DNA of 64,000 bases, from the NCBI RefSeq assembly GCF_014873755.1, contig NZ_JADBEG010000001.1, forward strand, positions 2,358,501-2,422,500. Reading direction: 5' to 3'. Source of the stretch: Amycolatopsis lexingtonensis (lineage in GTDB: Bacteria > Actinomycetota > Actinomycetes > Mycobacteriales > Pseudonocardiaceae). The translations under genes and the position numbers were made by a program. This document shows positions 34,475 through 60,207 of this stretch, one piece after another. Every line of letters begins with the position of its first letter. The stretch's first letter is position 1. The notes under the pieces were generated by a model. That model was not told the origin of the DNA. It made no database searches and saw nothing but the letters and a program-made list of their open reading frames with translations.

Positions 34475-34485
34475 GACCTCACTCT

Positions 34486-34500
34486 ATGCGATTCCGGCAT
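34486..34500. promoter_or_regulatory. Candidate LysR operator (ATGC-N7-GCAT)
   Basis: ATGC at 34486-34489 and GCAT at 34497-34500 form a T-N11-A palindrome, the classic LysR recognition pattern. It lies in the 107-bp gap between the divergent LysR gene and the beta-lactamase. An overlapping CGATT-N8-AATCG repeat (34489-34506) could be a second site. Confidence 0.6.
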
Positions 34501-34581
34501 CAATCGGCACGTTTCCGTCTTGGACAGCATGAGCGAACGCGGTGAGACTGCGGATGTCGATCAAGACCGGAAGGAAGCACC

Positions 34582-35499: not shown

Positions 35500-35528
35500 A
35501 AGGTCGCGAATGACTCATTCGCGACCTT
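35500..35528. repeat. Perfect 14-bp palindrome overlapping a stop codon
   Basis: Two 14-base perfect arms around a single C (core GCGAATGACTCATTCGC). It lies between the convergent beta-lactamase and reductase genes. The reductase's last four codons and its TGA stop (35515-35517) are inside the palindrome. The AATGACTCATT core is shared with 9890-9912. Confidence 0.9.
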
Positions 35529-36150
35529 GCGGCAGCGCGCGGAAGATCCGGGCCACCTCGCCTTCGACCTCGTCGAGCCACCGCACGCGGGTGTCGGCAC
35601 CGGCGTCGGCCAGCACCCGCAGCACGAGCCGCCAGACCTCCGGCTCGCCGAGGTACGGGGCCAAGCAGCGCCGCCAGATCGCGTCGAGCGGGTCGCCGAA
35701 CAGCGTCCGCTCGCGCTCTTCGGTCGTGTCGGACGTGTTCACCACCAGCAACCGCCGCAGGGAAAGCAACGACTCGGGCGCGCCACCCGCGGCGGAGAGG
35801 CGGTACGCGACACCCGGGACGAGGATCCGGTCGAGCCAGCCGCTGAGGATCGCGGGCGGCTTGCCCCACCAGTTCGGGTGGACCGCGACCAGCCCGCCCG
35901 CGTCGCGCAGCTCCTCGCGGTGGCGCCGCACCAGCGGGTCCGGTTCGGCGGCGAGGAACTCTTCCGCCCGGGTCCCGCTGGTGTAGGCCTCTTCCGCGGT
36001 CAGCACCGGGTCGAAGCCCTCGGCGTACAGGTCGTGGAACCGCACCGGCACCCCGGCCTGCTCCAGCGCCGCGACGACGCGGTCGGCGAGCGCGTGGTTG
36101 AAGCTCCCGGGCCGCGGGTGCGCGAGCAGCACGACGACCGGTGCGGTCAT
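35515..36150 (-). CDS. NAD(P)H:quinone/flavin oxidoreductase, flavodoxin-2 fold
   Basis: A 211-residue protein with the MdaB/KefF/NQO2 pattern: 'VVVLLAHPRPGSFNHALADRV' (phosphate loop for FMN/FAD), 'VAVHPNWWGKPPAILSGWLDRILVPGVAYRL' and a substrate-pocket segment. It transfers electrons from NAD(P)H to quinones or similar acceptors. ATG 36150 overlaps the dioxygenase stop (ATGA), so it is the last gene of the NRPS/PKS operon by coupling. It could reduce an intermediate or the product; no specific role can be proved. Confidence 0.85.
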   Translation of the reverse strand: MTAPVVVLLAHPRPGSFNHALADRVVAALEQAGVPVRFHDLYAEGFDPVLTAEEAYTSGTRAEEFLAAEPDPLVRRHREELRDAGGLVAVHPNWWGKPPAILSGWLDRILVPGVAYRLSAAGGAPESLLSLRRLLVVNTSDTTEERERTLFGDPLDAIWRRCLAPYLGEPEVWRLVLRVLADAGADTRVRWLDEVEGEVARIFRALPQGRE

Positions 36151-37085
36151 CCCGTCATCGCCACCAGGATGCGCCGCTTGCCGGTGAACGGCTCGCGCCC
36201 GTGGGCCATCAGCATGTTGTTGATCACCATGATGTCCCCACTCTGCCACGGGAACGCGTAGCTGACCTCGTCGTAGACCTCGCGGATCTTCGCCAGGTCG
36301 TCGACCGGGATCGGGCTGCCGTCGGCGAAGTAGGCGTTGCGCGGCAGGTCGGCCTCCGGGTACAGCTCCAGCAGCGCCTCGCTCACCTCCTCGCCGAGGC
36401 TCGAGACGTGGAAGAGGTTGGCCTGGTTGAACCACACGGTGTCCCCGGTGTGCTCTTCCACCACGAACGACGGCCGGACGTGCCGGGTGCGCAGGCCGTC
36501 CTCGGTCCATTCGAACGTCTGGCCGTTGCGCGTGCAGTAGTCCTCGACGACCGCGCGGTCCTCGGTCTGGAACGCCTCCTGCCAGGTCAGCCCGAGTCCT
36601 TCGCGGAACGCTCGCGTGTAGACGACGCCGCCCGCGAACCGCTCACGGAGGTCCTCGGGCAGCAGCCGGTACATCGCCCGGCTGTCCGCGATCGGTGTCG
36701 CTCCACCGGTTTCCGCGGCGGTGTCGCACAGGAAGAACAGGCGCGCGGGCCAGCTCGCCGAGTACGAGTTCTCGTTGTGCATCGGGATCGACTCGGCCGG
36801 CGGGTACTCCGTCGAGGTGTAGATGTTGCCGGCGACGTTCGAGCGCGGCGTCGAGCGCTCGGTGTAGGTCAGCAGCGCCCCGCCGATCGTCTCGGTGACC
36901 CGGTTGAACAAGTCGAGGTCGGCGGGCAGGCCGCGCAGCAGGATCGCGCCGTGATCGCGCAGGTGCTCCCGGACCTGCGGCAGCTGCGCCTCCACGGCCG
37001 CGAAGTCCGCGGCCGGGAAGACGGCGATCTTGGTGTGCTCGTTGCCCTGCAGCTGCCCCAGCGGCGCCGCGAGATCGGCGGTCAT
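36147..37085 (-). CDS. TauD/SyrP-like Fe(II)/2-oxoglutarate dioxygenase
   Basis: A 312-residue enzyme with a complete facial triad: His103 and Glu105 ('MHNENSYS') and distal His295 ('NNMLMAHGREPF'), plus Arg304-305 for 2-oxoglutarate. The 'P.HNE.SYS..WP..LFF.C' segment is characteristic of the SyrP-like subgroup, which beta-hydroxylates amino acids, often Asp held on an NRPS carrier. One downstream NRPS module has an Asx-type specificity code, so beta-hydroxy-Asx is a sensible prediction (inference). It is coupled by ATGA overlaps to the ATP-grasp gene upstream and the reductase downstream. Confidence 0.9.
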   Translation of the reverse strand: MTADLAAPLGQLQGNEHTKIAVFPAADFAAVEAQLPQVREHLRDHGAILLRGLPADLDLFNRVTETIGGALLTYTERSTPRSNVAGNIYTSTEYPPAESIPMHNENSYSASWPARLFFLCDTAAETGGATPIADSRAMYRLLPEDLRERFAGGVVYTRAFREGLGLTWQEAFQTEDRAVVEDYCTRNGQTFEWTEDGLRTRHVRPSFVVEEHTGDTVWFNQANLFHVSSLGEEVSEALLELYPEADLPRNAYFADGSPIPVDDLAKIREVYDEVSYAFPWQSGDIMVINNMLMAHGREPFTGKRRILVAMTG

Positions 37086-38335
37086 GACTCCTCCAGTACG
37101 AATCGGACAAGCTTCGCGGCTTCGGCGTGCAGCGCGGCCAGGTCGTCGACGTCGGCGAACCCGGCGACGAGGACGTTCACGGCGTAGATCTCCTGGTCGT
37201 CGCTGAGCACCTGGCCGGGGGAAACGATGGTGACGACGTCGAGGACCTCCGGCAGGTCCGCGACTTCCGCGGTGCCCTCGACGCGCACCAGCCGCCCGGT
37301 GCCTTCGGCGTAGACGACCAGGTAGCCGACCGGCACCGGCAGCCCGATCCCGCGCGCGGGCGGCGGGGTGCCGAGGGCGAGGGAAACGACTTCGGCGGTG
37401 ACGTCGATGCCGGTGGCCAGCCGCAGCAACGCCGGTTGCGCTCCCCCGGCGGGACGTCCGGCGTTGACCTCGACGACCACCGGCCCGAGCGTGGCGTCGT
37501 CGATCACTTCGACGTGCGCGCACGTCGAGTCCAGGCCCAGGGCCAGCACGGCGGCGGTCGCGGCCTCGGTGATCAGCCCGGCCCGTTCCTCCGTCAGCCC
37601 GAACGGCGGGCAGACCATGCCGAGCTCGAACTTACGCTCGTCGATCAGCGGTTTGCCGACCACCGTGACGGGTTCGGCGGCGCCGTCGCGGACGAGCACG
37701 TCCACCGCGTACTCCGGGCCGTCGAGCAGGCTCTCGACGAGGAACACCCGCAGCGGGTCGAGCGGGCCCGGCAGCGGGCGGTGGTAACGCGCGTCGGAGT
37801 TCTCCGGCAGCCGCGTGGCCAGCAGCTGGTAGGCCGCGACCAGTTCGTCCACAGTGGACACCGTGCGGACGAGCGTGCTCGCGGCGCCGTTGACCGGCTT
37901 CACGATCGCCGGGAGACCGACCTCCGCGGCGATCGCGGGCGCCTGCGCCGGATCGGCGAACAACGCGGCCCGTGGCCCCGGCAACCCGGCCGCGGCCAGC
38001 GCCTGCCGGACGGCGAACTTGTTGTGCGCCAGGGTGAACACGTCCGCCGGGCAACGCGCGACGCCGAGCAGCTCGGCGATCCGGGCGGTGCTCGCGATGA
38101 TCCCCTCCGCCGCGGTCAGCACCGCGGCGGGCTCCCGGTCGCGGAGCGCTTCGGCCACCGCGGGCGCATCCCGGACGTCGTCGACCACGACGAAGCCGTC
38201 GACCTGGTACTCTGGCTCGCCGTCGGCCAGGGGCTCGGTGACCAGCTCGGCCCGCCACCCGGCGGCCCGGACGGCGGCCGCGAAGTCCGCGATCCACTGG
38301 CCGTGCGTTTCCCGCACGATGAACGCGGTCTTCAC
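37082..38335 (-). CDS. ATP-grasp ligase (paralogue 1)
   Basis: A 417-residue ATP-grasp enzyme. It has an N-terminal pre-ATP domain ('FIVRETHGQWIADFAAAVRAAG'), a central ATP-grasp with 'LPAIVKPVNGAASTLVRTV', a Glu in 'EYAVDVLV', and the Mg-binding 'VEVIDD..LGPVVVEVNAGRPAGG'. The C-terminal domain ends 'LVRFVLEES'. ATP-grasp ligases join a carboxylate to an amine or thiol through an acyl phosphate. Members with this layout include amino-acid ligases. It is homologous along its whole length with the adjacent gene and coupled to it by ATGA. Confidence 0.88.
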   Translation of the reverse strand: MKTAFIVRETHGQWIADFAAAVRAAGWRAELVTEPLADGEPEYQVDGFVVVDDVRDAPAVAEALRDREPAAVLTAAEGIIASTARIAELLGVARCPADVFTLAHNKFAVRQALAAAGLPGPRAALFADPAQAPAIAAEVGLPAIVKPVNGAASTLVRTVSTVDELVAAYQLLATRLPENSDARYHRPLPGPLDPLRVFLVESLLDGPEYAVDVLVRDGAAEPVTVVGKPLIDERKFELGMVCPPFGLTEERAGLITEAATAAVLALGLDSTCAHVEVIDDATLGPVVVEVNAGRPAGGAQPALLRLATGIDVTAEVVSLALGTPPPARGIGLPVPVGYLVVYAEGTGRLVRVEGTAEVADLPEVLDVVTIVSPGQVLSDDQEIYAVNVLVAGFADVDDLAALHAEAAKLVRFVLEES

Positions 38336-39585
38336 GCGACCTCCAACCGGATCAGCTTGCTGGCTTCGGCGTGCAGCGCGGCGAGGTCGTCGTGGTCGGC
38401 GAACCCGGCGACGACCAGGTTGACCGCGTACGTCTCCTGCTCGTCGGTGAGCACCTGACCGGGGGAAACCGTCGTGACGACGTCGACGACCTCCGGCAGC
38501 GCGGCGACCTCGTCGAGGCCGCCGATGCCGGTCAAGGTGCCGGACCCGGACGCGTACAGGATCAGCATGGCCAGCGGGATCGGCAGCTTCGCGGGCTCCC
38601 GCGCGGGCGGTGGCGCGGCGAGGGCGAGAGCGGTCAGCTCCGCGAACACGTCGACGCCGGTGCGCAGCTTGGCCAGCAGCGGCATGATCGAGCCCGCCGG
38701 GCGGCCCGCGTTGACCTCGACGATCGTGGGGCCGCGGCGCTCGTCGTCGATCACCTCGACGTGCGCGATCGTGTTGTCCAGCCCCAGCGCGAGCACCGCC
38801 GCCGACGCCGCCGACGTGACCAGTTCCGCCCGCTCCGCCGAGAGCCCATCCGGCGGGCAGGACAGGACCAGCTCGAACTTGCGCTCGTCGATCAGCGGCT
38901 TGTCGAGGATCTCGACCGGCTCGGCGACGCCGTCGCGGATCAGGACGTCCACCGCGTACTCCGGCCCCTGCAGCAGGCTTTCGACGAGGAACGTCGCGGC
39001 CGGGTCGATCGTCCCCAGTGGACGGTGGTAGCGCGGGTCCGCGGACTCGGGCAGCCGCGACGCCAGCAGCTCGTACGCGGCCGCCAGTTCAGCCACAGTG
39101 GACACCGTGCGCACGAGGTTGCTCCCGGCGCCGTTGACCGGCTTGACGATCGCGGGCAGCCCGACCCGGTCGGCCACCTCGGATGCCGAAGCGGCCGAGG
39201 AGATCAGCGCCGCCGCGGGACCCGGCAGCCCGGCCGCGGCCAGCGCTTCCCGGACCGCGAACTTGTCGGCGCACAAGGCGAACACCGACGCCGGGCACCG
39301 CGCGACACCGAGCAGCTCGGCGACCCGGGCGGTGCTCGCGATCGCGCCGTCGGAACCGGTCAGCACGGCGGCGGGCACCCCGACCGCCGAGCGGATCCGG
39401 GCGGCGACGGCTTCGGCGTCGTAGACGTCGTCGACGGCGATCACCTCGTCCACCACCCCGGCCAACGACGCCTCGTCGACCGGCGGCGCGAGCAGCACCG
39501 CGCGGTGGCCGGCGGCGTGCACCGCGGCGGCGACTTCGCCGACCCAGTGCCCGCGGGCTTCCCTGATCAGCACGACGTCGCTCAC
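38332..39585 (-). CDS. ATP-grasp ligase (paralogue 2)
   Basis: Also 417 residues and a tandem homologue of the next gene: 'LIREARGHWVGEVAAAVHAAG', 'LPAIVKPVNGAGSNLVRTVSTV', 'EVIDDERRGPTIVEVNAGRPAGS' and an identical C-terminal layout ('VTTVSPGQVLTDEQETYAVNLVVAGFAD'). The catalytic and Mg-binding positions look intact in both copies, so neither is an obvious pseudogene; they probably act on different partners or form a heteromer. The start GTG 39585 overlaps the NRPS-MFS stop (GTGA). Confidence 0.88.
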   Translation of the reverse strand: MSDVVLIREARGHWVGEVAAAVHAAGHRAVLLAPPVDEASLAGVVDEVIAVDDVYDAEAVAARIRSAVGVPAAVLTGSDGAIASTARVAELLGVARCPASVFALCADKFAVREALAAAGLPGPAAALISSAASASEVADRVGLPAIVKPVNGAGSNLVRTVSTVAELAAAYELLASRLPESADPRYHRPLGTIDPAATFLVESLLQGPEYAVDVLIRDGVAEPVEILDKPLIDERKFELVLSCPPDGLSAERAELVTSAASAAVLALGLDNTIAHVEVIDDERRGPTIVEVNAGRPAGSIMPLLAKLRTGVDVFAELTALALAAPPPAREPAKLPIPLAMLILYASGSGTLTGIGGLDEVAALPEVVDVVTTVSPGQVLTDEQETYAVNLVVAGFADHDDLAALHAEASKLIRLEVA

Positions 39586-42500
39586 GCGGCCTCCTTCCCG
39601 GCGAGCTTGCGCTCCCGTTCCTGCGCGCCGACGAGGTCGTCCGGCAGCGAATCGGGCACCTCGGTGTCGAAGCGGCGCAGCAGCTTCACGGCGAACCCGC
39701 CGGCGTTGATCAGCAGCAGGATCAGCGCGTAGACGACGTACGCGAGCCCGACCCCGCGGCCCTCGCCGGTCCCGAGGATCGAACCGACCGACCCGGACAG
39801 CGCGCCGCCGGGGGCGAGCAGCGGCGAGAACCAGCCGACCGCGAGCGGGGCGAGCACGGCGAACCCGATCGGCAGCGTGGACCAGGTGATCGTCTGGTTG
39901 ATGGCGAACACCCGGCCGTGGTAGCGCTGCGGCACCTTGACCTGCACCAGCGTCGCGTAGATGCCCTGGGACACGGCCATCGCCGCGGCCAGCAGGAACA
40001 CCCCGGCCGCGACCACGATCAGCGACGGCCGCAGCCCCATCACGAGGCTGCCGACCGCGATGCCGACGTTGCCCGCGAGCACGCCGACCATCCGCCGCTT
40101 GCGCGGGCCGCCCCACAGAGCCATGCCGATGCCACCGGCCACCGCGCCGACCGCTTCGGCGAGCGCGACCTGGGCGACGTCGGTGACCGTGCCGAAGGAC
40201 AGCACCAGCGGCGAGACGAGGACCAGCGCCGGCGCCAGGAAGACGTTGGCCAGCGCGAAGTACAGCAGCATCGTGCGGAAGCCGCGGTGGTTCCACGAGT
40301 ACTTCAGCCCGCCCGCGATCGCCGTCAGCAGCGGCTCGCGCGGGCGCCAGCCGAGCAGGTCCGGGAACCGGACGAACAGCAGGCTGACGATGGCGAAGAC
40401 GTAGCTCGCCATGTCGAGGACCAGGATCCCCCGCAGCTGGATCGCCGCCAGCAGCCCGGCCGCGATCACCGGCATCAGCAGCTGCGCGAAGCCGTTGGAC
40501 AGCTGGGCGAGCCCCATCGCGTGTCCCAGGTACTGCTTGGGCACGAGCTGCGCCACCGACGACTGGTAGGCGATGCGCTGGATCGAGCCCGCGACCGAGC
40601 CGAGCGGGATCAGCACGTAGAGCCACCAGAGCTGGAGGTTCCCCACCGTCAGCAGCACCGCGAGCGCTAGCTGGATGACGCCGGCGATCGCGCTGGCGGC
40701 GATCATGATCTTCCGGCGGTCGCCGCGGTCGACGAGCGCGCCCGCCACCGGCAGGACCAGCACCCCGCACAGCAGCGCCAGCGCCCAGAGCAGGCCGAGG
40801 TCGGTGACCGAGCCGGTCCGGGTGTAGAGCCAGATCGGCACCGCGAACGACGTCAGCGCCGACCCGGTCGACGACACCAGCTGGCCGACCGTGACCGTGA
40901 CGAACCGGGCCATGCTCGGCTTGACCGCGGGCTTGTCGTCCACTTCGGACCGGTGGGTGTCGTGCACCGCCCAGCCCTCGTCTTCGCGCACCGAAACGTG
41001 CAGGTCACCGGGTTCGTCCAGGGCCGGGTGCACCCGGGTCAGGATTTCCGCCAGCTCTTCCGCGCGGTAGCGGAGGAAGAAGTGCCCGGCCTGGTCCAGC
41101 ACCACGAGCGCGGTCCGGTCGGTGAGGAACTCCCACTCGCGGTAGCGCTCGGCGTAGTAGTCGGTGACCGGGTCCTCCGAGCCGACCACCGAGATGATCG
41201 GCGCGCGCAGCTTGGCGACGCGGGCATCGAGCAGGCCGCTGAAGTACTCCTCGGCGGCGCGGCTGTCGGCGCGCATGTTGCTGATGATCCGGTCGGCCTG
41301 TGCCGGGTCGAGGTCGTCGGTGTCGACGCCCATCCCCTTGAGCCAGTTCGCGTAGTACCGGTTGCTGCGCAGCTTTTCCAGCCGCGTCCGCAGCGTCCCG
41401 ACCGCGCCCTTGATCCGCGCGAACGGGAAGATCGCGCCGATGTGCACGACTTCCAGCTCGCGGCCGCGCTCCTCGAGACGCCGGGAGACGCCGACGGCGA
41501 GGGCGTTGCCGACGCCGCAGTGGCCGTAGATCGCCAGCGGCCCGTCGATCCGCTCGAGGACCTCGTCCGCGAGCCGCTCGACCAGTTCGTCGAACGGCAC
41601 CGCTTCTTCGGACAGGCCGACGTCGTGACCGGGGATCGCGACCGAGAACAGCGAATACCCGCTGGGCAGCGCGTCCGCGAGGGGCTGGTAGACGATCGCG
41701 CTGCCGCCGCCGTACGGGAAGCAGACGTAGGTGAGCGTCGGCTTCGCGACCGGCTTGGTCAGCTCGTACAGCAGATGGCCCGAATCGTCGCGGTCGCCGT
41801 CGAGGAACACCGCCAGCTCGCGGATCGTGCGGTGCTGGAACAGGTCCATCACGCCGGCCTGGTGCCCGGCCTTCGCGATCCGCGCGACCACCTGGGTGGC
41901 GAGCATCGAGTGGCCGCCGAGGTCGAAGAAGTCGTCGTCGACGCCGAGTTCCTCGACCTTGAGAACGTCCCGCCAGATGTCCGCGAGCAGCAGTTCGAGC
42001 GGGGTGGACGGCTCGACCATTGCGGTGCTCGCGTCCCGCGCGGCGACCGGCGCGGGCAGGGCCTTGCGGTCGAGCTTCCCGTTCGGCGTCAGCGGCAGCG
42101 CGTCGAGGGTGACGAACGACGGCGGCACCATGTAGTCCGGCAGCGTCTCCTTGAGCGCGGCCCGCAGGCCTTCCGCGTCGCCGACGACGTAGCCGACCAG
42201 GCGCTTGTCCCCCGGCGTGTCCTCCCGGACCACCACGACGGCGTCGGCCACACCGGGCTGCTCCCGCAGGCGGGCCTCGATCTCGCCGAGTTCGATCCGC
42301 AGGCCGCGCAGCTTGACCTGATGGTCGAGGCGGCCGAGGAACGCGATCGTGCCGTCGGCGCGCCAGTGCGCGAGGTCACCGGTGCGGTACATCCGGCCGC
42401 CGTGGAACGGGTCCGTGACGAACCGCTCGGCCGTCAGCTCCGGCCGGTTGTGGTAGCCGAGCGCGAGCCCGACGCCGGCGATGTGGAGTTCGCCGGGCAC

Positions 42501-47953: not shown

Positions 47954-47963
47954 GTCTCCTGCT

Positions 47964-50900: not shown

Positions 50901-53222
50901 GAACCGGACCGCCTGGCGCAGGTGCGCGGCCCAGTACGCCGGATCGGTGGCCTGCTCGGCGGTGATCCAGCCGCCGGTCAGGTTCGACAGGAACGGCAGC
51001 GACGGCGCCGACCGCGGCACCGCGGCGACCGCCTCGGCGAACTCGGCCAGGATCGGGTCCATCATCGGCGAGTGGAAGGCGTGCGAGGTCACCAGTTCCC
51101 GGCACTGCACGTCACTCGACTTCAGCAGCGACGCGAAGTCCGCGACCGCGCCGGACGGCCCGGCGACGACGCACGTCCCCGGCCCGTTGACCCCGGCGAT
51201 CGAAAGACCTTCCGGCAGCCGCTTCGCGACGGATTCTTCGTCGAGCTGGACGGCGAGCATCGCGCCGGCGGGCATCGCCTGCATCAGCTCGCCGCGCCGC
51301 ACGACCAGCCGCATCGCGTCGGCGAGGGTGAACACCCCGGCCACGGTCGCGGCGACGTACTCCCCGACGGAGTGCCCGAGCATCGCGCCCGGCCGCACGC
51401 CCCAGCTGCGCCACAGCCGGGCCAGCGCGTATTCGACGGCGAACAGCGCGGGCTGGGTGTACCGCGTCTCGCGCAGCTCGGCGTCCCCGCCGCGGCCGAG
51501 GACCAGCTCCTTCAGGCCGGGCAGCCCGGAAAGCTCGCAGCACTCGTCGAACGCCGTCGCGAAGACGGGCTCGCTGCGGTACAGCTCGGCGCCCATCCCG
51601 GCGTACTGCGAACCCTGCCCGGAGAACAGGAACGCCACCTTGAGCTCGCCGGCCTGGCCCGTGACGAGCCGCCGGGAGTCGCGCAGGCCGTCGACGGCGT
51701 CTTCGGAGTCGCGCGCGACGACCACCGCGCGGTGCGGGTACTCGGTGCGCCCGGTCGCGAGGGTGTGCGCGACGTCGGCGAGGTCGAGGTCGACGTCCCC
51801 GGCCAGCCGGTCGGCGAGCCGCTCGACCGCGGTGGCCAGGGTTTCCGGCGTCTTCGCCGACACCCGCAGCAGGTGGGCCGGGTGCGGCCGGCGGTGCCGC
51901 CGCGGCGCGGGCGCCTCCTCCAGCACCACGTGGGCGTTGGTGCCGCCGACGCCGAAGGAGCTCACGCCCGCCCGGCGCGGGGTGTCCGCGGCTTCCCACT
52001 TGGTCACGGTGGTGGCCGGGTGGAAGGGGCTGTTCGGGAAGTCGATGCCCGGGTTGGCTTCTTCGTAGTTGATGGTCGGCGGGATGAGCCCGTGTTCCAT
52101 CGCCAACACGGTCTTGATCAGCGCCACGACGCCGGCCGCCTGCGACAGGTGGCCGATGTTCGACTTCACCGAGCCGATCGCGCACCAGCCGGTGTCCGGC
52201 ACGCCGTGGCCGTACACAGTGGACAGCGAGGTGATCTCGATCGGGTCGCCCAGCGCGGTTCCGGTGCCGTGGGCCTCGACGTAGCCGATCGTGCGCGGGT
52301 CCACCCCGGCCATGCCGACCGCCTGCGCGATGGCCTCGGTCTGCCCGGCGACGCTCGGCGCGGAGAAGCCGACCTTCGTGGCGCCGTCGTTGTTGATCGC
52401 GTTGCCGAGCACGACCGCCCGGATGTGGTCGCCGTCTTCCAGGGCCTGGGAGAGCCGCTTGACCAGGACAACGCCGACGCCGCTGCTCCACACCGTGCCG
52501 TTGGCGCCGGCGTCGAACGCGCGCACGTGCCCGTCCGGGGAGGTGAAGCCTTCGACGCCCATGTACCCGATGCCGTGCGGCATCTCCAGGTTCACCCCGC
52601 CGGCCAGCGCGAGGTCGCACTCGCCGTTGCGCAGTGCCTCGCACGCCAGGTGCACCGCGACCAGCGACGTCGAGCACGCCGTGTGGATCGCGAGGCTCGG
52701 GCCGCGCAGGTTCAGCTTGTAGGACACCGACGTCGTCAGGTAGCTGGGCTGGTTGCCGGTGGACATCCCGATGCCGCCGTGCTGCGAGGCCATCACGCGC
52801 TCGTTGCGCAGCAGGTTTTCGATGAGGTAGCCGGTCCGCCCGGTGCCGCCGTAGACCCCGATCGCGCCGCCGTAGCGGGCCGGGTCGTAGCCGCCGTCGG
52901 TCAGCGCCGCGTGGCAGGCTTCGAGGAAGACCCGGTGCTGCGGGTCGGTGATCTCGGCTTCGCGGCTGGTCATGCCGAACAGGTCGGCGTCGAACTCGTC
53001 GAAGCCCTCGACCACCGTGGTCGCGTTGACCCAGCTGGGATCGTCCAAAGTGGCCGGATCGGCACCGCGGGCGAGCAGTTCCTCGCGGGTGGCGGGCTTG
53101 ATGGACTCGACCCCGTCGACGAGGTTGCGCCAGAACTGCCGGAGGTCGCCGGCGCCGGGGACGCGGGCGGCCATCCCGACGATGGCGATGGGTTCTGCGC
53201 CCGGTTCGAGGTCGTTCGTCAC
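47964..53222 (-). CDS. Type I PKS module KS-AT-KR-DH-ACP
   Basis: A 1752-residue module. KS about 10-435 (Cys183 in 'HTACSTS', His near 320 in 'EAHGTGTALGD', His near 357 in 'SNIGHL'). AT about 525-840 (GHSVGEY Ser near 614; HAFH near 712, the malonyl-CoA type). KR about 1095-1280 ('GGTGGIG', Tyr in 'DYCAANNF'). DH about 1335-1590 ('HRIAGVPVVPG' with His near 1342; 'HPALLDVA' with Asp near 1500). ACP about 1660-1735 ('LGGNSLVAIQL'). KR comes before DH, the reverse of the usual order. It should extend by one malonate and leave a 2,3-double bond. The start GTG 53222 overlaps the previous stop. Confidence 0.95.
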   Translation of the reverse strand: MTNDLEPGAEPIAIVGMAARVPGAGDLRQFWRNLVDGVESIKPATREELLARGADPATLDDPSWVNATTVVEGFDEFDADLFGMTSREAEITDPQHRVFLEACHAALTDGGYDPARYGGAIGVYGGTGRTGYLIENLLRNERVMASQHGGIGMSTGNQPSYLTTSVSYKLNLRGPSLAIHTACSTSLVAVHLACEALRNGECDLALAGGVNLEMPHGIGYMGVEGFTSPDGHVRAFDAGANGTVWSSGVGVVLVKRLSQALEDGDHIRAVVLGNAINNDGATKVGFSAPSVAGQTEAIAQAVGMAGVDPRTIGYVEAHGTGTALGDPIEITSLSTVYGHGVPDTGWCAIGSVKSNIGHLSQAAGVVALIKTVLAMEHGLIPPTINYEEANPGIDFPNSPFHPATTVTKWEAADTPRRAGVSSFGVGGTNAHVVLEEAPAPRRHRRPHPAHLLRVSAKTPETLATAVERLADRLAGDVDLDLADVAHTLATGRTEYPHRAVVVARDSEDAVDGLRDSRRLVTGQAGELKVAFLFSGQGSQYAGMGAELYRSEPVFATAFDECCELSGLPGLKELVLGRGGDAELRETRYTQPALFAVEYALARLWRSWGVRPGAMLGHSVGEYVAATVAGVFTLADAMRLVVRRGELMQAMPAGAMLAVQLDEESVAKRLPEGLSIAGVNGPGTCVVAGPSGAVADFASLLKSSDVQCRELVTSHAFHSPMMDPILAEFAEAVAAVPRSAPSLPFLSNLTGGWITAEQATDPAYWAAHLRQAVRFGDCVRTLLGGGERWALVECGPGHQLAGLARGQVPKGLPAPQPSLPGRTDREGDVETLYAAAGLLWTHGVSVELTTAGHRVPLPGYPYARKRYWVDPDPKGTLVQPEQPSGPLPLDEWFAVPSWRQAGPELRREPFASCLAFVDDDVLPGLLRDAGVAVTEVRPGAAFAATDRGFTVRPGVRADYDELVAALGDRPERVVHAWALGGTETGMAAQERGFFSVLNLVQAWGEPVRIDVLSTGTADVTGTDLTRPEHATLAGIARVLPLEVPGTAVRRIDVEAVTEEVVAELFRPAEAEVALRRGRRWVLEHTQVTVPEAVPVLREGGRYLITGGTGGIGVTLAEDFALRVRAKLILLTRSGLPPREEWDTRDGTDRTARAIRAIRRMEAAGSVVHVVAADVTDPARLREVRELAEREFGGLDGIVHAAGLPGGGVAEVKERAAAEAVLAPKIAGTLALASAFADLPMDFVALCSSVTAVSGDFGQVDYCAANNFLDAYARGDHGWRARVVSHDWGGWDEVGMAAEVAAPTTIRSTRTKADGPVAHPVLTTRTGEDCHGLVSAAAHWLLDEHRIAGVPVVPGTGHLETVRAAVEAALPKPGDGHVVELRDVAFLEPFSVPEGTVAEYRVGFDGDGFAVTSRAGGVTKTHVRGSAGWIPAPATSTVDLDAVRARTSVLDDGNAFGTGRTSMVTFGPRWAALRTHHVGTHEELASLVAPVFDTGWGLHPALLDVATAFGRGRGSGTYLPMSYGRVVVHDALPASFHSHLRYRDSGGDQVIAADLTLCADDGRVLVEIEDFVLRQVDEGAVSGGLTAPAAKSTVDSSGIRPVDGAEAFLRALTPGLGGQVVISTRPVRDLFARRVTAEALEETEEVAEVVQAQSQDDYVAPRTDLEAEIARQWAEVLGVEHIGVHDDFFALGGNSLVAIQLIAQVRKTTGARLAMKTLFESSTVAALVERIEELQSASLSRESDAATTIPKLER

Positions 53223-56200
53223 TGCGGTCGCTCCTGTTCGTGGCCGGTCGTGCCGGCACTGCGGCGGGGTCTTCTGGACGGGGTGCGCCCCCGGCGGGCG
53301 GCGACCCGCTCGGCGGCCCGGGCGAGTTCCGGACTGGGCGCGGCCCCCGCGTGGAGGTGGGTGGCGAGGGCGCGGACGGTGGGGTGGGTGAACAGGTCGA
53401 CCATCGGGATGCGGCGGCCGAGCCGGGCGGTGACCTCGGCGTGCACCTTCGCCAGTGCGAGCGAATGCCCGCCGACGTCGAAGAAGTTGTCGGTCACGCG
53501 GACGGCGTCGAGACCGAGCACCTCCCGCCAGGTCGCGGCGATCAGGGCTTCGGTCGCCGCCAGCGCGGCCGGGTCGACGGCGGGCGCGGGCTCGGCCTTC
53601 GGCGGCGCGGCCGCTTCCGGCGCGGCCGTCCGGACGGCGGCCCGCGGCAGTTCCGGTGCGCACGCCCCGGCCGGCCGGTCCGGCTCGGCGGCCAGCGCCG
53701 CGAGGAGCGCCGTGAAGTCCTCTGCCAGCGCGGCCATCCGGGCCGCGTCGAACAGGTCCGGGTTGTACAGCAGCTCGACGCCGTGCTCGAGGACGTACAC
53801 CGTGAGGTCGAACGGCGAACCGGGTTTCTCGACCGGAAGCCACGTCCCGCGCACCCCGGGCAGGTCGAGCCGGGGTTCGGTGAAGCCGAGGACGTTGACC
53901 ATCACCTGCACCAGCGGCGCCCGCGAGGGGTCGCGGGGCACGCCGAGCGCGCCCACGAGCCGGTCGATCGGGGCCGCCGGGTGCGCGGTGGCGGCCAGCA
54001 GTTCGGCGCCGCCGCGGCGGGCGAGCGTGGTGAAGTCCGCGTCCCCGCCGCGCAGCCGCACCGGGACGATGTCCACGAAGAACCCGGCGACGTCCTGGGT
54101 TTCGGCCAGCTGCCGGTCCGCGACGACGGTGGCGACCAGGTGGTCGTCCCCGCCGGTCAGGCGGGCGAGCAGCTGCCCGAACGCGGCCAGCACGACGCCC
54201 GCGCGGGTCGTCCCGGTGCGGGTCGCCAGTGCTCCGACGGCTTCGGCGACGCCGTCCGGGAAGGCCTCGTGGTGGGTCGTGCCGCGGTAGGTCTGCACCG
54301 GCGGGCGCGGCCGGTCGCGCGGAAGGTCCACTGTGGACGGCGCACCCGCGAGGTGCTCGGTCCACCACGCGAGGTCCACGGCTTCGCGGCGGCGGTCGCG
54401 GTCCGCGCGCCACACCGCGTAGTCCGCATAGGACACCGGCAGCGGCGGCAGGGTCTCGCCGCGGTAGGCCGCCGCGAGGTCGGCGCAGAGCAGCTCCTGC
54501 GACCAGCCGTCGAACACGGCGTGATGGAGCGTGAACCCGAGCACGTGCTCCTCGGGTCCCAGCTCGTACAACCGCACGCGCCACGGCGGTTCGCGGTCGA
54601 GCCGCACGGGTGCCGCCGCGTCGGCGGCCAGGCGGCCGCGGACCTCGGAGTCGGTCAGCGGGAGCACCGGCAGCTCGACGTCGCCGGGTGGCAGGCACTC
54701 CGCCCGCGGGGCACCGTCGACGGGCCGGATCCGCCAGCGCAGCACGTCGTGCCGTTCGGCCACCGCGCGCAACGCCGCCCGCAGCGCGCCGACGTCGAGC
54801 GGCCCGGTCAGCCGGAACGCCATCGCGATGTTGTACGGCGCCGCGTCCGGGGCGAGCTGGTCGAGGAACCAGAGCCGCCGCTGCGGCGGGGACAGCGCGG
54901 GAGCGTGCCCGGTGGTCAGGCCCGCACCGGTGAGCGGCGCGGCCGCGGCCACCCGCCGGGTCAGCTCCTCGAGCGTCCGGCCGGCGAAGACGTCCTCGAC
55001 GGACACGTCGGCGGCGAAGTCCTTCCGCAGCGCGGCGACCAGCCGCATCGCCGCGATCGAGTCACCGCCGGACCGCAGGAAGTCCGGCCCGGCGCCCGCG
55101 CCCAGCACCCGCCGCCACACCTCGGCGACCGGCGAGCCGCCCAGGTCTTCGCCCGGCTCGCTGTCGGCCAAGGCACGCAGCGCGGGCCGGTCGATCTTCC
55201 CGGTGACGGGGTTGACCGGCAGCACGTCCAGGCGGCGGAGCACGGCCGGGCGCATGGCCTCGGTGAGCCGCTCGCCCGCGTAGGCGTGGATGTCCGCGTC
55301 GGACGGTGCCGACGCCGGGCTGAGGAACGCGACCAGCCGGGTGCCGCCCGGACCGGGCACGGCTTCCACGGCGACGGCGCCGACGTCCGGGTGGGCCCCC
55401 AGCGCGGCCTCGACCTCCCCGAGCTCGATGCGCTGCCCGCGGATCTTCACCTGCCGGTCGGCGCGGCCGGCGAACTCCAGCCTGCCGTCGAGGCGGAGCC
55501 GGGCCAGGTCGCCGGTGCGGTAGAGCCGCTCCCCCGGCGTGAACGGGTCCTCGACGAACTTCCGCGCGGTCAGTTCCGGGCTGCCGAGGTAGCCCGCGGC
55601 GAGGCCGGGACCGCCGATCAGCAGCTCCCCGACCTCGCCCGGCGGGACCGGCCGCAGCTCGTCGTCGACGACGTGGGCGCGGTGCTCCGGCGTCGGCGTC
55701 CCCAGCGGCAGCGGGTCGGCGGGTACACCGGTCACCTCGTCGGTGAGCACGACGACGGTGGTCTCGGTGGGGCCGTAGACGTGGAAGAACCGGCGGCCCG
55801 GCAGCCAGCGGGCGACCAGCTCGGCGGGCACCGGCTCGCCACCGCAGGCCACCGTCCGCCAGCCGGGCACGTCGGCGGGGTCCACAAGGGACAACAGGGT
55901 CGGGGTGATGAACCCCCAGTCGACGTCGTGCTCGACGATGAACCGCCGCAGCCGTTCGGGGTCCGCCCGGTCGGCGGTCCCGGCCAGCTGCACCGAGCCG
56001 CCGACCGACAGCGGCACGAAGACGTCCATCGTGAACGCGTCGAACCCGAGCGAGGAGATGCCGAGCGTCCGGGTGCCGGGACCGACGCCGAGCCGGCCGG
56101 CGAACCCCGTGACGAACGCAACGATGTTGCGGTGGCTGGTGAGCACGCCCTTGGGCCGCCCGGTCGAGCCGGAGGTGTAGAGCACGTGCGCGGTGGTGTC

Positions 56201-56653
56201 CGGGCCGGCCGGGCAGTGGCCGGGCGCGGCGGGCGGCGGGACGTCGATCCCCGCCACCGCACCGAATTCCGCGACGGCCGCGTCACCGATGACGAGGGAA
56301 ACCCCGGCGTCCTCGGCGATCGCGGTCAGCCGCGCGCGCGGCCCGCCCGGGTCGAGCGGGACGTAACAGGCGCCGGACAGCAGGACCCCGAGCACGGTGC
56401 TGATGAGCGCGGGTGTGCGGTGCGCGCACACCCCGACCCGGGTCTCCGGGCCGGCTCCGCGTTCGCGCAGGACGGCCGCGACACCCCAGGCCGCGGCGAC
56501 GAGCTCAGCGTAGGTGAGCCGGGTCCCGCCCTGCCGCACCGCGAGCGCGTCCGGCGTCTTCTCCGCCTGTGCCAGGACCAGTCCGGCGACCGTGGTGTCC
56601 GGATAGGACAGTGGCGGGCCGTGCGTACCCGCGACGGGCAGCGTGTCGGTCAC
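53219..56653 (-). CDS. NRPS A-PCP-C-PCP
   Basis: A 1144-residue protein. A domain about 15-500 ('YTSGSTGRPKG'; pocket residues read D-A-M-F-A-G-V-V-V-K, no confident match, hydrophobic). PCP1 near 531 ('SGGDSIAAM'). C domain about 575-1000 ('LHHAVFDGWS' near 712). PCP2 near 1062 ('VGGHSLALAK'), then a basic tail rich in Arg/Pro. There is no A domain between C and PCP2, so PCP2 must be loaded in trans or receive a chain by transfer. The start GTG 56653 has GGGGAG ahead and lies 57 bp after the A-PCP-KS stop. It is coupled by GTGA to the PKS. Confidence 0.93.
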   Translation of the reverse strand: MTDTLPVAGTHGPPLSYPDTTVAGLVLAQAEKTPDALAVRQGGTRLTYAELVAAAWGVAAVLRERGAGPETRVGVCAHRTPALISTVLGVLLSGACYVPLDPGGPRARLTAIAEDAGVSLVIGDAAVAEFGAVAGIDVPPPAAPGHCPAGPDTTAHVLYTSGSTGRPKGVLTSHRNIVAFVTGFAGRLGVGPGTRTLGISSLGFDAFTMDVFVPLSVGGSVQLAGTADRADPERLRRFIVEHDVDWGFITPTLLSLVDPADVPGWRTVACGGEPVPAELVARWLPGRRFFHVYGPTETTVVVLTDEVTGVPADPLPLGTPTPEHRAHVVDDELRPVPPGEVGELLIGGPGLAAGYLGSPELTARKFVEDPFTPGERLYRTGDLARLRLDGRLEFAGRADRQVKIRGQRIELGEVEAALGAHPDVGAVAVEAVPGPGGTRLVAFLSPASAPSDADIHAYAGERLTEAMRPAVLRRLDVLPVNPVTGKIDRPALRALADSEPGEDLGGSPVAEVWRRVLGAGAGPDFLRSGGDSIAAMRLVAALRKDFAADVSVEDVFAGRTLEELTRRVAAAAPLTGAGLTTGHAPALSPPQRRLWFLDQLAPDAAPYNIAMAFRLTGPLDVGALRAALRAVAERHDVLRWRIRPVDGAPRAECLPPGDVELPVLPLTDSEVRGRLAADAAAPVRLDREPPWRVRLYELGPEEHVLGFTLHHAVFDGWSQELLCADLAAAYRGETLPPLPVSYADYAVWRADRDRRREAVDLAWWTEHLAGAPSTVDLPRDRPRPPVQTYRGTTHHEAFPDGVAEAVGALATRTGTTRAGVVLAAFGQLLARLTGGDDHLVATVVADRQLAETQDVAGFFVDIVPVRLRGGDADFTTLARRGGAELLAATAHPAAPIDRLVGALGVPRDPSRAPLVQVMVNVLGFTEPRLDLPGVRGTWLPVEKPGSPFDLTVYVLEHGVELLYNPDLFDAARMAALAEDFTALLAALAAEPDRPAGACAPELPRAAVRTAAPEAAAPPKAEPAPAVDPAALAATEALIAATWREVLGLDAVRVTDNFFDVGGHSLALAKVHAEVTARLGRRIPMVDLFTHPTVRALATHLHAGAAPSPELARAAERVAARRGRTPSRRPRRSAGTTGHEQERPQ

Positions 56654-56710
56654 GAAGAACTCCCCAGTTCGGCCCGGCCGCGGTGGCGGCCGGGTGGTGG
56701 TGCGTGCGGC

Positions 56711-59700
56711 TCATGGGTGGTGTCCCGGAACCGGTGGGTCGATCCAGCACCGCACGCGCTGGAACGGGTAGCCGGGCAGCGGCACCCGCCCGGGCTCGGC
56801 GCCGTCGTGGCGGGCGGTCCAGTCGACGCTGTCGCCGCCGGTCCAGCGCAGCGCCAGCTCGCGTGCGGCACCGGGCGGCCCGGCCACGTCGCCGCCCTCG
56901 GCCAAGAGGGTGCCGAGCCCCTCGACGGCTTCCTCGGCGGTCGAAGCAACCACAGCCGCTCGGCAGGCGAACTCCCGGCGGCCCACCGCGAGGGTGTAAG
57001 CGGCGTCGGCGAGGTCCGGCGGGTTGGCGGCGAGCCGGTCCCGCAGCGCGGATAGGGCCTGGCGCAGGGCTTCCGGGTCCCGCGCCGACACCGGCAGGAC
57101 GTGCGGTCCCCCGGCCGTCACGCGCGAGCCCGGCGCCGGTGCTTCTTCGACGACGACGTGAACGTTGGTGCCGCCCAGGCCGAACGCGCTGACCCCGGCC
57201 ACCCGGCGGGGCGCGTCGGGCCAGTCGGTGGCCTTGACCGGCACGAAGCACGGGCCACCCGCCAGGTCGACCTCCGGGTGCGGCGCGGTGAAGTGCAGGT
57301 TCGGCGGGATCACGCCGTGGCGCACCGAAAGCACCGCCTTGATCAGGCCGGCCACCCCGGCGGCCGCGTCGAGGTGCCCGATGTTCGTCTTGACCGAGCC
57401 GAGCGCGCACGTGCCGGGCGGGACGTCGCGGTACACCCGGTTGAGCGCGGCGACTTCGATGGCGTCGCCCAGCGGCGTGCCACTGCCGTGCGCCTCGATC
57501 AGCCGCACCTCGGCCGGGTCCACTTCGGCCACGGCCAGTGCCTCCGCGATCGCGGCCGCCTGGCCCGCCGGGCTCGGCACGGCGTACCCGGCGCGGTCGG
57601 CGCCGTCGTTGGTCATCGCCCAGCCGGGCAGCACGGCGTGGATGTGGTCGCGGTCGGCGAGCGCGTCGGACAGCCGCCGCAGCACCACGACCCCGGCGCC
57701 GGAGCCGAACCCGGCCCCGTCGGCGGCCGCGTCGAACGAGCGGCAGCGGCCGTCCGCCGACGCGAGGCCGCCCGCGCGGTACCGCGGCCACGTGACGCTC
57801 ACCCCACCGGCGATCGCCAGGTCGCAGCGGTATTCGGCGAGGCTCTGCGCGGCCAGGCCGACCGCGGCGAGCGAGCTGGAGCAAGCACTTTGGACGGCGA
57901 CCGCCGGCCCGGTCAGCCCCAGCCGGTAGGCGACCTGGCCGGGCAGGTGGTCGGTGAGCTGGCGGCCGAGCAGCCGGCCCTCCCAGTCGTCCGGGTCGAC
58001 GTCTCCGGTGACGGCCGGGTTCCCGAAGAGGTGGAAGAGGAAGTACCGGTTGACCCCGGCGGAGGTGAACACCCCGACCGGGCCGTGCTCCTGCGCCGGG
58101 TCGCGGCCCGCGTCCTCCAGCGCCCGCCACGCGGCCTCCAGGAACAGGCGGTGCTGCGGGTCGGTGCGCGCCGCTTCCTCCGCGGTGAACCCGAAGAACC
58201 CGGCGTCGAAGTCCTCGACGCCGTCGAGACGGCCGCCCGCCCGCACGTGCGCGGGGTCGCCGCGCAGGCCGGGTCCGATGCCGAGCGCGGCCAGCTCGTC
58301 GTCGGTGTAGTCGTGGATCGCGTCGGCGCCCGCGCAGAGGTTCCACCAGAACGCGTCCGCGTCGGGCGCGCCCGGGAACCGGCAGGCGAGCCCGACGACG
58401 GCGATCAGGTCGCTGCCCGGCTCGTCCTCCTCGGCTTCGGCCGCGGCCGCACGGGGTTCGTCCGAAGGGGCCGGTTCCAGGTAGGCGGCTTGCGCCGCGA
58501 CCGTCGGGCGCTCCAGCAGCCCGAGCAGCGGAACGTCCACGCCGGACTCCGCGGCCAGCCGCTGCTGGACCCGGCCCAGAAGCAGGGAATGCCCGCCGAC
58601 GTCGAAGAAGGCGTCCTCGGTGCCGAACCCCTCGTGCCCCAGCACGGCGGCCCAGATCGCGTGCACCCGCCGCTGCGCCGCGGTCATCGGCCCGGCCGGG
58701 ACGGGCGCGGGCGGCCGGGGATCCGGAAGTGCTTCCTCGTCGAGCTTCCCCGTGACCGTGAGCGGGAACGCCGGGACGGCGACGACCGCGGACGGTACCG
58801 AATGCGCGGGCAGCACCTCGGCCAGCGCGGCCCGCAGCGCCGTCACGTCCGGCTCGCCGGCCGGCACGACGTAAGCGAGCAGCTCGCCGTCCCGCACGAT
58901 CGAGCGGGCTTCGGCGACGCCCGGCTGTTCGCCGAGGCGGGCTTCGATCTCGGTCAGCTCGACCCGGAACCCGCGGACCTTCACCTGCCGGTCGAGGCGG
59001 CCGAGGCAGACGATGGTCCCGTCCGGCCGGACCTCGCCGAGGTCGCCGGTGCGGTAGCTGCGGACGCCGTCGCCGGTGGTGCCGAACGCCGGGCCCGGCT
59101 GGTCGAAGTAGCCGTCGACCAGGTACTCGCCGCTGACTTCGAGCTCACCGCCGTCGAGCACGGTGAGCGCGTAGCCGGGCAGCGCGGTACCGATCGGCAG
59201 CGGGCCGGTGGCGCCGGCCGGGACGTCGGCGGCGGTCAGCCGGTACTGCGCGGCGAAGGTCACCTCGGTCGCGCCGTACCCGTTGACGTACACGCATTCG
59301 GGGGCGAAGCGACCGCGGCGGACGTCGGCGTAGGTGGCCTGCTCACCGCCGAGCAGGACGGTCCGCACCGACGGCAGGTCGCCGTCGAGCGCGTCCAGGA
59401 GGTGGCGGTAGACCGTCGGCGTCGAGTGGTAGACGGTGACCCGGTGCCGCGCGAGTTCACGGGCGGCGTGGGCGACGCCGTGGGCGCGGACGTCCACCGG
59501 CACCACGGCGGCGCCGGTCAGCAGCGCCGGGTAGAGGTCCGGGATCGCCGCGTCGAAGCCGAAGGACGCCAGCAGGCTGAGCCGGTCGGCGGCGGTGATG
59601 CCGAGCGACGCGATCTGGTTGTCCACGACGTGCAGCAGGTTGCGGTGGGTCTGCGCGACCGCCTTCGGCGTCCCGGTGGAGCCGGAGGTGAACAGCACGT

Positions 59701-60142
59701 AGGCCGGCGCGGCCGGGTCCGGGTCGGGCACCGGCAGCGGCGCGGTGTCCGGCCCGGACTCCACGACCCGCGCGGCAGCGTTGCGGCACAACGCTTCCGC
59801 GAGGTCGCCGTGCTCGGGGATGGTGAGCACGGCCGACACGCGGGCCGCCGCGACCTGGTGGGCGAGCCGGTCCCGCGGGAACGTCGGGTCGAGCGGGACG
59901 TACGTGCAGCCCGCGGCCAGGGTGCCGAGGATCGCCGCGATCGCGGCGGTCCCGTGCCCGGTCAGCAGGCCGACGAACTCGCCCGGCCGGACGCCGGCGT
60001 CGAGCAGCCGGGCGGCGTGCCCGCCGGCCAGCCCGGCCAGCCGCGCGTAGCTCACCGCCGAGTCGTGCTCGACGACCGCGATCCGGTCGGGCGACTGCCC
60101 CGCGATTCCCGCGAAACGTCTGATGCAGCCGTCTTGCGTCAT
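56711..60142 (-). CDS. NRPS-PKS hybrid A-PCP-KS with AT deleted
   Basis: A 1143-residue protein. A domain about 8-500 ('FTSGSTGTPKAV', atypical 'NGYGATEVTF', pocket residues D-A-P-H-L-G-G-F-A-K, no match). PCP near 517 ('VGGHSLLLG'). KS about 575-1000 with Cys near 753 ('QSACSSS'), His near 883 ('EAHGSGTPLGD') and His near 923 ('TNIGHL'), so the triad is complete. The KS-AT linker is followed directly by a post-AT linker-like end ('PLPGYPFQRVRCW'); no AT or ACP is present. It is the first large gene of the operon. ATG 60142 overlaps the stop of a 22-codon leader (ATGA); GTG 60187 is a weaker alternative. Confidence 0.92.
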   Translation of the reverse strand: MTQDGCIRRFAGIAGQSPDRIAVVEHDSAVSYARLAGLAGGHAARLLDAGVRPGEFVGLLTGHGTAAIAAILGTLAAGCTYVPLDPTFPRDRLAHQVAAARVSAVLTIPEHGDLAEALCRNAAARVVESGPDTAPLPVPDPDPAAPAYVLFTSGSTGTPKAVAQTHRNLLHVVDNQIASLGITAADRLSLLASFGFDAAIPDLYPALLTGAAVVPVDVRAHGVAHAARELARHRVTVYHSTPTVYRHLLDALDGDLPSVRTVLLGGEQATYADVRRGRFAPECVYVNGYGATEVTFAAQYRLTAADVPAGATGPLPIGTALPGYALTVLDGGELEVSGEYLVDGYFDQPGPAFGTTGDGVRSYRTGDLGEVRPDGTIVCLGRLDRQVKVRGFRVELTEIEARLGEQPGVAEARSIVRDGELLAYVVPAGEPDVTALRAALAEVLPAHSVPSAVVAVPAFPLTVTGKLDEEALPDPRPPAPVPAGPMTAAQRRVHAIWAAVLGHEGFGTEDAFFDVGGHSLLLGRVQQRLAAESGVDVPLLGLLERPTVAAQAAYLEPAPSDEPRAAAAEAEEDEPGSDLIAVVGLACRFPGAPDADAFWWNLCAGADAIHDYTDDELAALGIGPGLRGDPAHVRAGGRLDGVEDFDAGFFGFTAEEAARTDPQHRLFLEAAWRALEDAGRDPAQEHGPVGVFTSAGVNRYFLFHLFGNPAVTGDVDPDDWEGRLLGRQLTDHLPGQVAYRLGLTGPAVAVQSACSSSLAAVGLAAQSLAEYRCDLAIAGGVSVTWPRYRAGGLASADGRCRSFDAAADGAGFGSGAGVVVLRRLSDALADRDHIHAVLPGWAMTNDGADRAGYAVPSPAGQAAAIAEALAVAEVDPAEVRLIEAHGSGTPLGDAIEVAALNRVYRDVPPGTCALGSVKTNIGHLDAAAGVAGLIKAVLSVRHGVIPPNLHFTAPHPEVDLAGGPCFVPVKATDWPDAPRRVAGVSAFGLGGTNVHVVVEEAPAPGSRVTAGGPHVLPVSARDPEALRQALSALRDRLAANPPDLADAAYTLAVGRREFACRAAVVASTAEEAVEGLGTLLAEGGDVAGPPGAARELALRWTGGDSVDWTARHDGAEPGRVPLPGYPFQRVRCWIDPPVPGHHP

Positions 60143-60207
60143 CGCTCGGTGTCGGCTCCCGACGGCGAATGGGCGCGCGGAAACCACGGCGGTGACGTCG
60201 ACTTCAT
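60139..60207 (-). CDS. Candidate 22-residue leader peptide of the NRPS/PKS operon
   Basis: A 22-codon frame, ATG 60207 to TGA 60139, that would encode a Pro/Ser-rich peptide (MKSTSPPWFPRAHSPSGADT..). GGGGAG lies four bases upstream of its ATG, a better ribosome site than the NRPS gene itself has. Its TGA overlaps the NRPS ATG (ATGA), the same arrangement as most other junctions of the operon. It may couple translation into the first synthetase. It could also be chance; there is no family evidence. Confidence 0.45.
   Translation of the reverse strand: MKSTSPPWFPRAHSPSGADTER

Follow-up and report, generated by a model that had tools for sequence, protein, structure and literature searches.

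Gene content and organization of the operon

The window analysed here, a 64,000-nucleotide stretch of the Amycolatopsis lexingtonensis genome (10.74 Mb, one contig; NZ_JADBEG010000001.1, positions 2,358,501 to 2,422,500), contains a hybrid nonribosomal peptide synthetase/polyketide synthase (NRPS/PKS) operon of nine genes, p1 to p9. All nine lie on the minus strand, from 60142 down to 35515, and are preceded by a leader open reading frame (ORF) at 60207-60139. The single direction of leader and genes (60207 to 35515) and the overlaps at most junctions, both noted in a preliminary description made from the letters alone, were confirmed: 4-base ATGA/GTGA overlaps occur at seven of the nine junctions, the exceptions being p1/p2 (57-base gap) and p3/p4 (10-base gap). 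The domain order given by Pfam, with adenylation (A), thiolation (T), ketosynthase (KS), condensation (C), acyltransferase (AT), ketoreductase (KR), dehydratase (DH), acyl carrier protein (ACP), thioesterase (TE) and major facilitator superfamily (MFS) domains, is A-T-KS / A-T-C-T / KS-AT-KR-DH-ACP / C-A-T / C-A-T-TE-MFS / ATP-grasp / ATP-grasp / TauD / Flavodoxin_2. The features are the following:

60139..60207, minus strand: leader ORF, 22 codons, stop overlapping the p1 start (ATGA)
56711..60142, minus strand: p1, A-T-KS, code DAPHLGGFAK; ATG start inferred from the overlap, the ORF opening at 60187
53219..56653, minus strand: p2, A-T-C-T, code DAMFAGVVVK, C motif LHHAVFDG
47964..53222, minus strand: p3, KS-AT-KR-DH-ACP; one malonyl extension, ketoreduction and dehydration predicted
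44969..47953, minus strand: p4, C-A-T, code DLTKVGEVGK, C motif HHTVFDA
39582..44972, minus strand: p5, C-A-T-TE-MFS in a single frame, 1796 aa, code DVWHVSLIDK
41040..41726, minus strand: TE domain of p5, Cys-Asp-His triad, ObiF-like
39885..40892, minus strand: MFS transporter domain of p5
38332..39585, minus strand: p6, predicted ATP-grasp amide ligase with LAL_C2 domain
37082..38335, minus strand: p7, predicted ATP-grasp amide ligase with LAL_C2 domain
36147..37085, minus strand: p8, predicted TauD-type Fe/2-oxoglutarate oxygenase, SyrP-like, HxE...H...R
35515..36150, minus strand: p9, Flavodoxin_2/NAD(P)H-oxidoreductase-like gene, one Amycolatopsis clade

The module order given in the preliminary description agrees with these domains, but that account overlooked the additional C-T pair of p2, which has no A domain, and the MFS domain in frame behind the TE of p5; the Cys character of the TE and the ligase swap presented below also escaped it. 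Its two ATP-grasp ligases and SyrP-like oxygenase were recovered by Pfam (ATP-grasp/LAL_C2 in p6 and p7, TauD in p8), and p9, taken for a flavin reductase, has to be renamed as a Flavodoxin_2/NAD(P)H-oxidoreductase-like protein. As had been claimed, neither an MbtH nor a phosphopantetheinyl transferase gene is present within the operon; three MbtH and four ACPS-family matches were found elsewhere in the genome. The first four named matches of p7 were Amycolatopsis proteins of 90-96 % identity.

Distribution of the cluster family

The survey covered 297 genomes, with 26 genomes of the same genus listed, the source genome included. The pair of ATP-grasp genes was present in 13 of these 26 and also in two genomes of other genera (G030 and G111). 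The order p1-p7 was kept in 13 of the 14 relatives examined, and in the 14th (G283) a contig end removes p1, p2 and part of p3; the operon is therefore not a chance arrangement. p8 was present in 13 of the 14 relatives and p9 in one.

A search of named sequences with the TE-MFS part of p5 yielded 245 relatives, the best 80 of which were kept and form the basis of all counts out of 80 given below, some genomes being counted twice. These best 80 comprise 19 Amycolatopsis/Labedaea loci, many from Micromonospora, and others from Microtetraspora, Planobispora, Planomonospora, Actinophytocola, Actinokineospora, Nonomuraea and further genera. The whole assembly line was found in all four distant members read upstream (Micromonospora chalcea, M. 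matsumotoense, Paractinoplanes pyxinae and Microtetraspora fusca), with A-T-KS, A-T-C-T and KS-AT-KR-DH-ACP upstream of the Asn and Ser-TE-MFS modules, and a p1 relative better than E 1e-200 was present in 46 of 50 loci. In the minimal clusters of Planobispora and Planomonospora only the Asn module, the Ser-TE-MFS module and TauD were seen. A plasmid search returned as best matches generic NRPS sequences of 41-43 % identity and was not followed as a lead.

Three cousins (G031, G127 and G247) were excluded from the counts, except for the peptide aminoacyl-tRNA ligase (PEARL)-like proteins of G127 and G247, which make up two of the nine aligned. G031 has A-T, KS-T, A-T-C-T and KS-AT-KR-DH-ACP genes, one ATP-grasp gene and a separate MFS gene; G127 and G247 each combine a KS-AT-KR-DH-ACP gene with single genes of the PEARL-like and ATP-grasp types. 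G127 additionally carries E1/E2 2-oxoacid dehydrogenase genes, and G247 a methylaspartate mutase E chain gene.

Within Amycolatopsis the family was found in A. orientalis/japonica-type and A. rifamycinica/vancoresmycina-type species, which we take to represent clades A and B of the genus, and in A. marina. NRPS/PKS clusters of this orphan family are widespread in actinobacteria, and the operon stands for their Amycolatopsis branch.

The earlier statement that the operon has no named counterpart holds in so far as searches of the open-licence literature returned no product for the family, but members of the family are already in print as orphans. 'PKS/NRPS BGC-4' (BGC, biosynthetic gene cluster) is described as an orphan hybrid of Amycolatopsis clades A and B and A. 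marina (Adamek et al. 2018, PMC5984834), and the passages of that paper dealing with it name no product. Compared by description and not by gene content, it agrees with the operon's family in hybrid type and distribution, and the Amycolatopsis branch is probably this cluster. The orphan pks/nrps-3 of Micromonospora sp. DSW705, predicted as 'X-X-?-C2-Asn-Ser' in Table 5 of PMC5075396, is identical to the operon in its published module string, the A-less module included, and the same string describes M. chalcea and M. matsumotoense.

The releasing module of p5 and its fused exporter

The codes of the A domains were read at the GrsA positions, verified on PDB 1AMU. The p5 code, DVWHVSLIDK, which we take to specify Ser, falls within the pattern DVWH[IV]SL[IV]DK seen in 79 of the 80 p5-type codes; in these 79 the code of the last module is thus that of a beta-hydroxy-alpha-amino acid (Ser), as for an ObiF-type TE. 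The TE triad consists of Cys, Asp (at position II, with none at position I) and His in all 15 family members. The best solved sequence was ObiF1 (E 2.7e-32), and in a fold search with the AlphaFold model of the TE-MFS part (21 sequences, mean pLDDT 77.9, pTM 0.61) ObiF1 again ranked first, the SulM chains next, and MFS transporters and type II TEs thereafter.

The Cys/Asp TE triad is tied to beta-lactone and beta-lactam closure in the relevant passages of PMC6668435 and PMC11298585. With the TEs of ObiF1 (obafluorin) and SulM (sulfazecin), as presented there, p5 shares the Cys nucleophile, Asp at position II and the C-A-T-TE context; it differs in having no MbtH domain, a fused MFS domain, an elbow longer by one residue, and Ser where those enzymes have a substituted homo-Phe or diaminopropionate (DAP). 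A Ser-loaded last module followed by an ObiF-like Cys TE fits a Ser beta-lactone, and the TE probably releases the chain through attack of the Ser hydroxyl.

Several observations weigh against beta-lactone release. The elbow, GHCGVG compared with GHCAG in ObiF, departs from strict GXCXG; the type II TE 6vap (BorB) ranked between ObiF1 and SulM by sequence; and ten more distant fused TEs comprise eight with Cys and two with Ser. It is possible, if doubtful, that the same assembly line ends in a Cys TE that hydrolyses or macrocyclises, any free Ser carboxylate then being extended by the two ligases. In its favour, type II and macrocyclising TEs appear among the fold matches (RifR, BorB, Vlm2), the elbow deviates from that of ObiF by one residue, and the ligases require some free carboxylate. 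Against it, ObiF1 and SulM head the structural matches, the Ser of the last module suits beta-lactone formation, and the minimal Planobispora/Planomonospora clusters retain TE-MFS with neither a PEARL-like nor an ATP-grasp gene at the cluster.

The TE-MFS fusion lies in an open frame in all 14 relatives. Among the matches listed, C, A, T, TE and MFS domains were present in 119 of 120 proteins, the remaining one being partial and without C. At E 1e-60 or better the fusion was found in 22 of 394 genomes of the class, in some of them several times, and in clusters without an Asn module; it is a larger architecture that extends beyond this family. No description of an NRPS-TE-MFS fusion was found in the open-licence literature.

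The Asn module of p4 and the oxygenase p8

The p4 code, DLTKVGEVGK, presumably selects Asn. It was found in 70 of the 80 p4-type sequences and DLTKLGEVGK in one; at least three of the remaining sequences are Ser modules, picked up where the Asn module is missing. The Asn module and a TauD gene were both present in 60 of the 80 loci and both absent from 17, with at least L142, L153 and L164, which lie at contig edges, kept in these counts. This co-occurrence lends support to the predicted hydroxylation of Asn by p8.

The TauD domain of p8 has the Fe ligands HxE...H, in the source and in all 12 relatives whose gene was read. p8 thus shares the TauD fold and the Fe-binding motif with the SyrP-like/TauD oxygenases of NRPS clusters, its gene being linked to the Asn module; it is set apart by its nearest solved proteins, At3g21360 and an unnamed TauD protein, and its action on carrier-bound Asp/Asn is a prediction. 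Weighing against the pathway proposed below are the three loci of 80 in which the two are separate (Asn alone in L189, TauD alone in L155 and L164), the genome G111, which has an Asn module and no TauD in the stretches covered, and the motif of the p4 C domain, HHTVFDA; the last two slightly reduce its odds.

The early modules p1 to p3

The p1 code was DAPHLGGFAK in 13 of the 14 relatives and DAPHLGGFVK in one; the former also occurs in two Micromonospora and the latter in Microtetraspora fusca. The codes of p2 vary across the relatives and look hydrophobic. p1 has neither AT nor ACP, and the second T of p2 (T3), in the C-T pair, is A-less. The Cys-His-His motifs of the first KS (KS1) are intact in all 14 relatives, as are the Cys and second-His motifs of KS1 and KS2, the HAFH motif of the AT, the KR, the first DH motif and the carrier serines; EAHGTGT of KS2 is present in 13. 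HAFH presumably marks malonyl specificity. A TAS1-like terminal KS in p1 was considered and rejected, since modular and AT-less PKS domains (best E 2.1e-175) matched far better than TAS1 (6kog, E 3.5e-62).

Not everything here favours a regular assembly line: no evident acceptor ACP accompanies KS1 and T3 is not paired with an A domain, which makes the early steps uncertain; GHSVGE of the AT was matched in 11 of the 14 relatives; and four residues beyond the DH Asp all 14 have Ala, where Q/H is usual. The KS1 counterpart of the cousin G031 has its own T, and with no evident ACP for KS1 the loading of T3 in trans is plausible. The product type suggested earlier, a short, unsaturated and hydroxylated peptide-polyketide, fits the domains, but its 'lipopeptide-like' character finds no support, the line starting with A-T and no Pfam match indicating a fatty-acyl starter.

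Twin ligases and the PEARL/ATP-grasp swap

Both p6 and p7 have ATP-grasp and LAL_C2 domains above the Pfam cut-off. They share the ATP-grasp and LAL C-terminal domains with L-amino-acid ligases (BL00235, BacD, DdaF), BL00235 being the best solved match (E 5.6e-17), but are distant (on p6 the DdaF model reaches 18.6 bits, its cut-off being 840) and form twin copies beside a megasynthase.

Ligase genes were compared at 50 of the 80 loci, 16 of them from Amycolatopsis/Labedaea and 34 from others, the proximity of PEARL-like (PF04738) genes being judged from coordinates. ATP-grasp twins were present in 16 of 16 Amycolatopsis/Labedaea genomes and in none of the 34 others. Conversely, none of the 16 has a PEARL-like gene at the cluster, nor is there one among the nine operon genes, and the 34 others have two such genes in 24 clusters, one in 5, three in 1 and none in 4. 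The three genes scored for L164 and the two for L155, both partial matches, are uncertain counts; among those scored as none, L145 and L152 have PEARL-like genes at contig ends, and L173 and L175 are minimal clusters. Micromonospora-type members thus differ from the operon in having PEARL-like twins and no ATP-grasp twins. Their PEARL-like genes are placed between p1 and p2 and neighbour a type II TE, and the ATP-grasp twins sit after p5.

All nine aligned PEARL-like proteins retain E-x-R and an upstream Glu, the latter matched to the published Glu by spacing only; similar residues are assigned to the phosphorylation step of PEARLs in the relevant part of PMC11962472, a paper that also refers to a proposal deriving PEARLs from ATP-grasp enzymes. 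A PDB search with a PEARL-like protein gave no relevant solved relative, so that its identity rests on Pfam PF04738 and the conserved residues; the PEARL-like ligases are probably tRNA-dependent. A remnant type II TE was found between p1 and p2 in A. marina and G111, where PEARL is absent, and is 55-61 % identical to the type II TE that adjoins the PEARL-like genes in two Micromonospora. The simplest story is a ligase swap in the Amycolatopsis line, in which the PEARL-like twins would have been lost and the ATP-grasp twins gained. Against this stands the fact that the ligase counts track phylogeny and so represent few independent events. No description of a PEARL/ATP-grasp exchange was found in the open-licence literature.

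The position of the genes also bears on what they do. In Micromonospora-type members the PEARL-like genes adjoin the starter genes, next to the type II TE, and the constant p1 code was matched to no substrate, as would suit ligases that make or protect a building block, whether a short peptide loaded by A1/A2 or a removable self-protecting extension. The swapped ATP-grasp genes are, however, located after p5, and to our knowledge the p1 and p2 codes resemble no dipeptide-loading domain; we hold such a role to be unlikely.

The sna (threopeptin) cluster with its PEARL SnaE, as presented in parts of PMC11212132, shares with the operon carboxylate-activating ligases outside the assembly line of an NRPS-PKS cluster, and has PEARL-like genes as do the operon's sister members; the operon differs in its twin ligases of ATP-grasp type and in having no ureido signature. 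In a threopeptin-like chain reversal, the C domain of p2 would form a urea between two amines and the ligases would extend the freed carboxylate. The combination of PEARL and NRPS/PKS logic shown for sna, and the A-T-C start of p2 as in SnaA, speak for this route. The C motif of p2 contradicts it, reading LHHAVFDG in the source and 13 of 13 relatives and [LVFM]HHAVFDG in four of four Micromonospora-type members, and the reported ureido signature EHHXXHDG, absent from p2, occurs in none of the loci collected. The ureido reading was thus rejected as highly improbable.

Proposed pathway

With slightly less than even confidence, we favour an X-Y-enoyl-(hydroxy)Asn-Ser chain that leaves the enzyme as a Ser beta-lactone, is exported by the MFS domain and is extended at a free carboxylate by the two ligases. 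Two amino acids would come from p1 and p2, X being constant and Y variable and hydrophobic, and the C domain of p2 would couple the unit on T2 to that on T3, loaded in trans and possibly from p1. p3 would add one malonate and form the enoyl group, p4 would add Asn, to be hydroxylated by p8, and p5 would add Ser, the Cys TE then releasing the chain, most likely as a beta-lactone via the Ser hydroxyl, for export by the fused MFS domain. p6 and p7 would activate a free carboxylate on an intermediate with ATP, each adding one amino acid, a job that the PEARL-like twins would do in Micromonospora-type members. Anatomy, conservation, gene linkage and the ligase exchange are established by the sequence comparisons, whereas the substrates, the sequence of early reactions, the site hydroxylated, closure of the ring and the partners joined by the ligases are inferred.

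A bolder version of the same scheme is rather unlikely to hold in full. In it, the product would be a beta-lactone of Asn-Ser that bears an enoyl-peptide arm and is exported, made on an assembly line whose releasing enzyme is fused to the exporter, and lengthening the arm by two residues would have been solved twice, by tRNA-dependent PEARL-like twins in Micromonospora-type members and by tRNA-independent ATP-grasp twins in Amycolatopsis, in a non-orthologous swap.

NRPS/PKS hybrids are familiar; the exporter-fused releasing module and the PEARL/ATP-grasp exchange are apparently new. The analysis places a single orphan operon in a family whose chemistry can be tested. With an ObiF-like Cys TE that follows a Ser module and is fused to a transporter, many cultured strains of Micromonospora and Amycolatopsis would be expected to make and export a reactive product. 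The swap offers a natural experiment on PEARL-like function in nonribosomal pathways, a role raised as a question in passages of PMC11212132, which counts around two thousand clusters.

Leader, p9 and flanking genes

A leader-type ORF that ends in the same kind of ATGA overlap stands ahead of p1 in all 12 Amycolatopsis-type relatives read; none was noticed upstream of p1 in the four Micromonospora-type members or G111. The relatives' leaders have 20-23 codons and in most start with MKST, the rest of the peptide drifting. Pairwise codon differences among eight leaders of equal length were 14 synonymous and 64 nonsynonymous. The amino-acid sequence thus seems free of constraint, and a conserved leader peptide was dismissed. 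The leader may couple translation to p1.

p9 was present in 8 of the 19 named Amycolatopsis/Labedaea loci, and no relative of it was found in the G111 stretches covered. Two beta-lactamase-family genes flanking a LysR regulator lie directly behind the operon (32706-35481). Both beta-lactamase genes occur close to the cluster at all 8 loci of the p9 clade (LysR in 7 of 8) and at none of the 11 other Amycolatopsis/Labedaea loci; a role in self-resistance would be speculative. Further away, adjoining SelB-like, SelA and tRNA-Sec genes form a selenocysteine insertion locus (26906-29995), and 18729-22385 is a large alpha-L-rhamnosidase gene.

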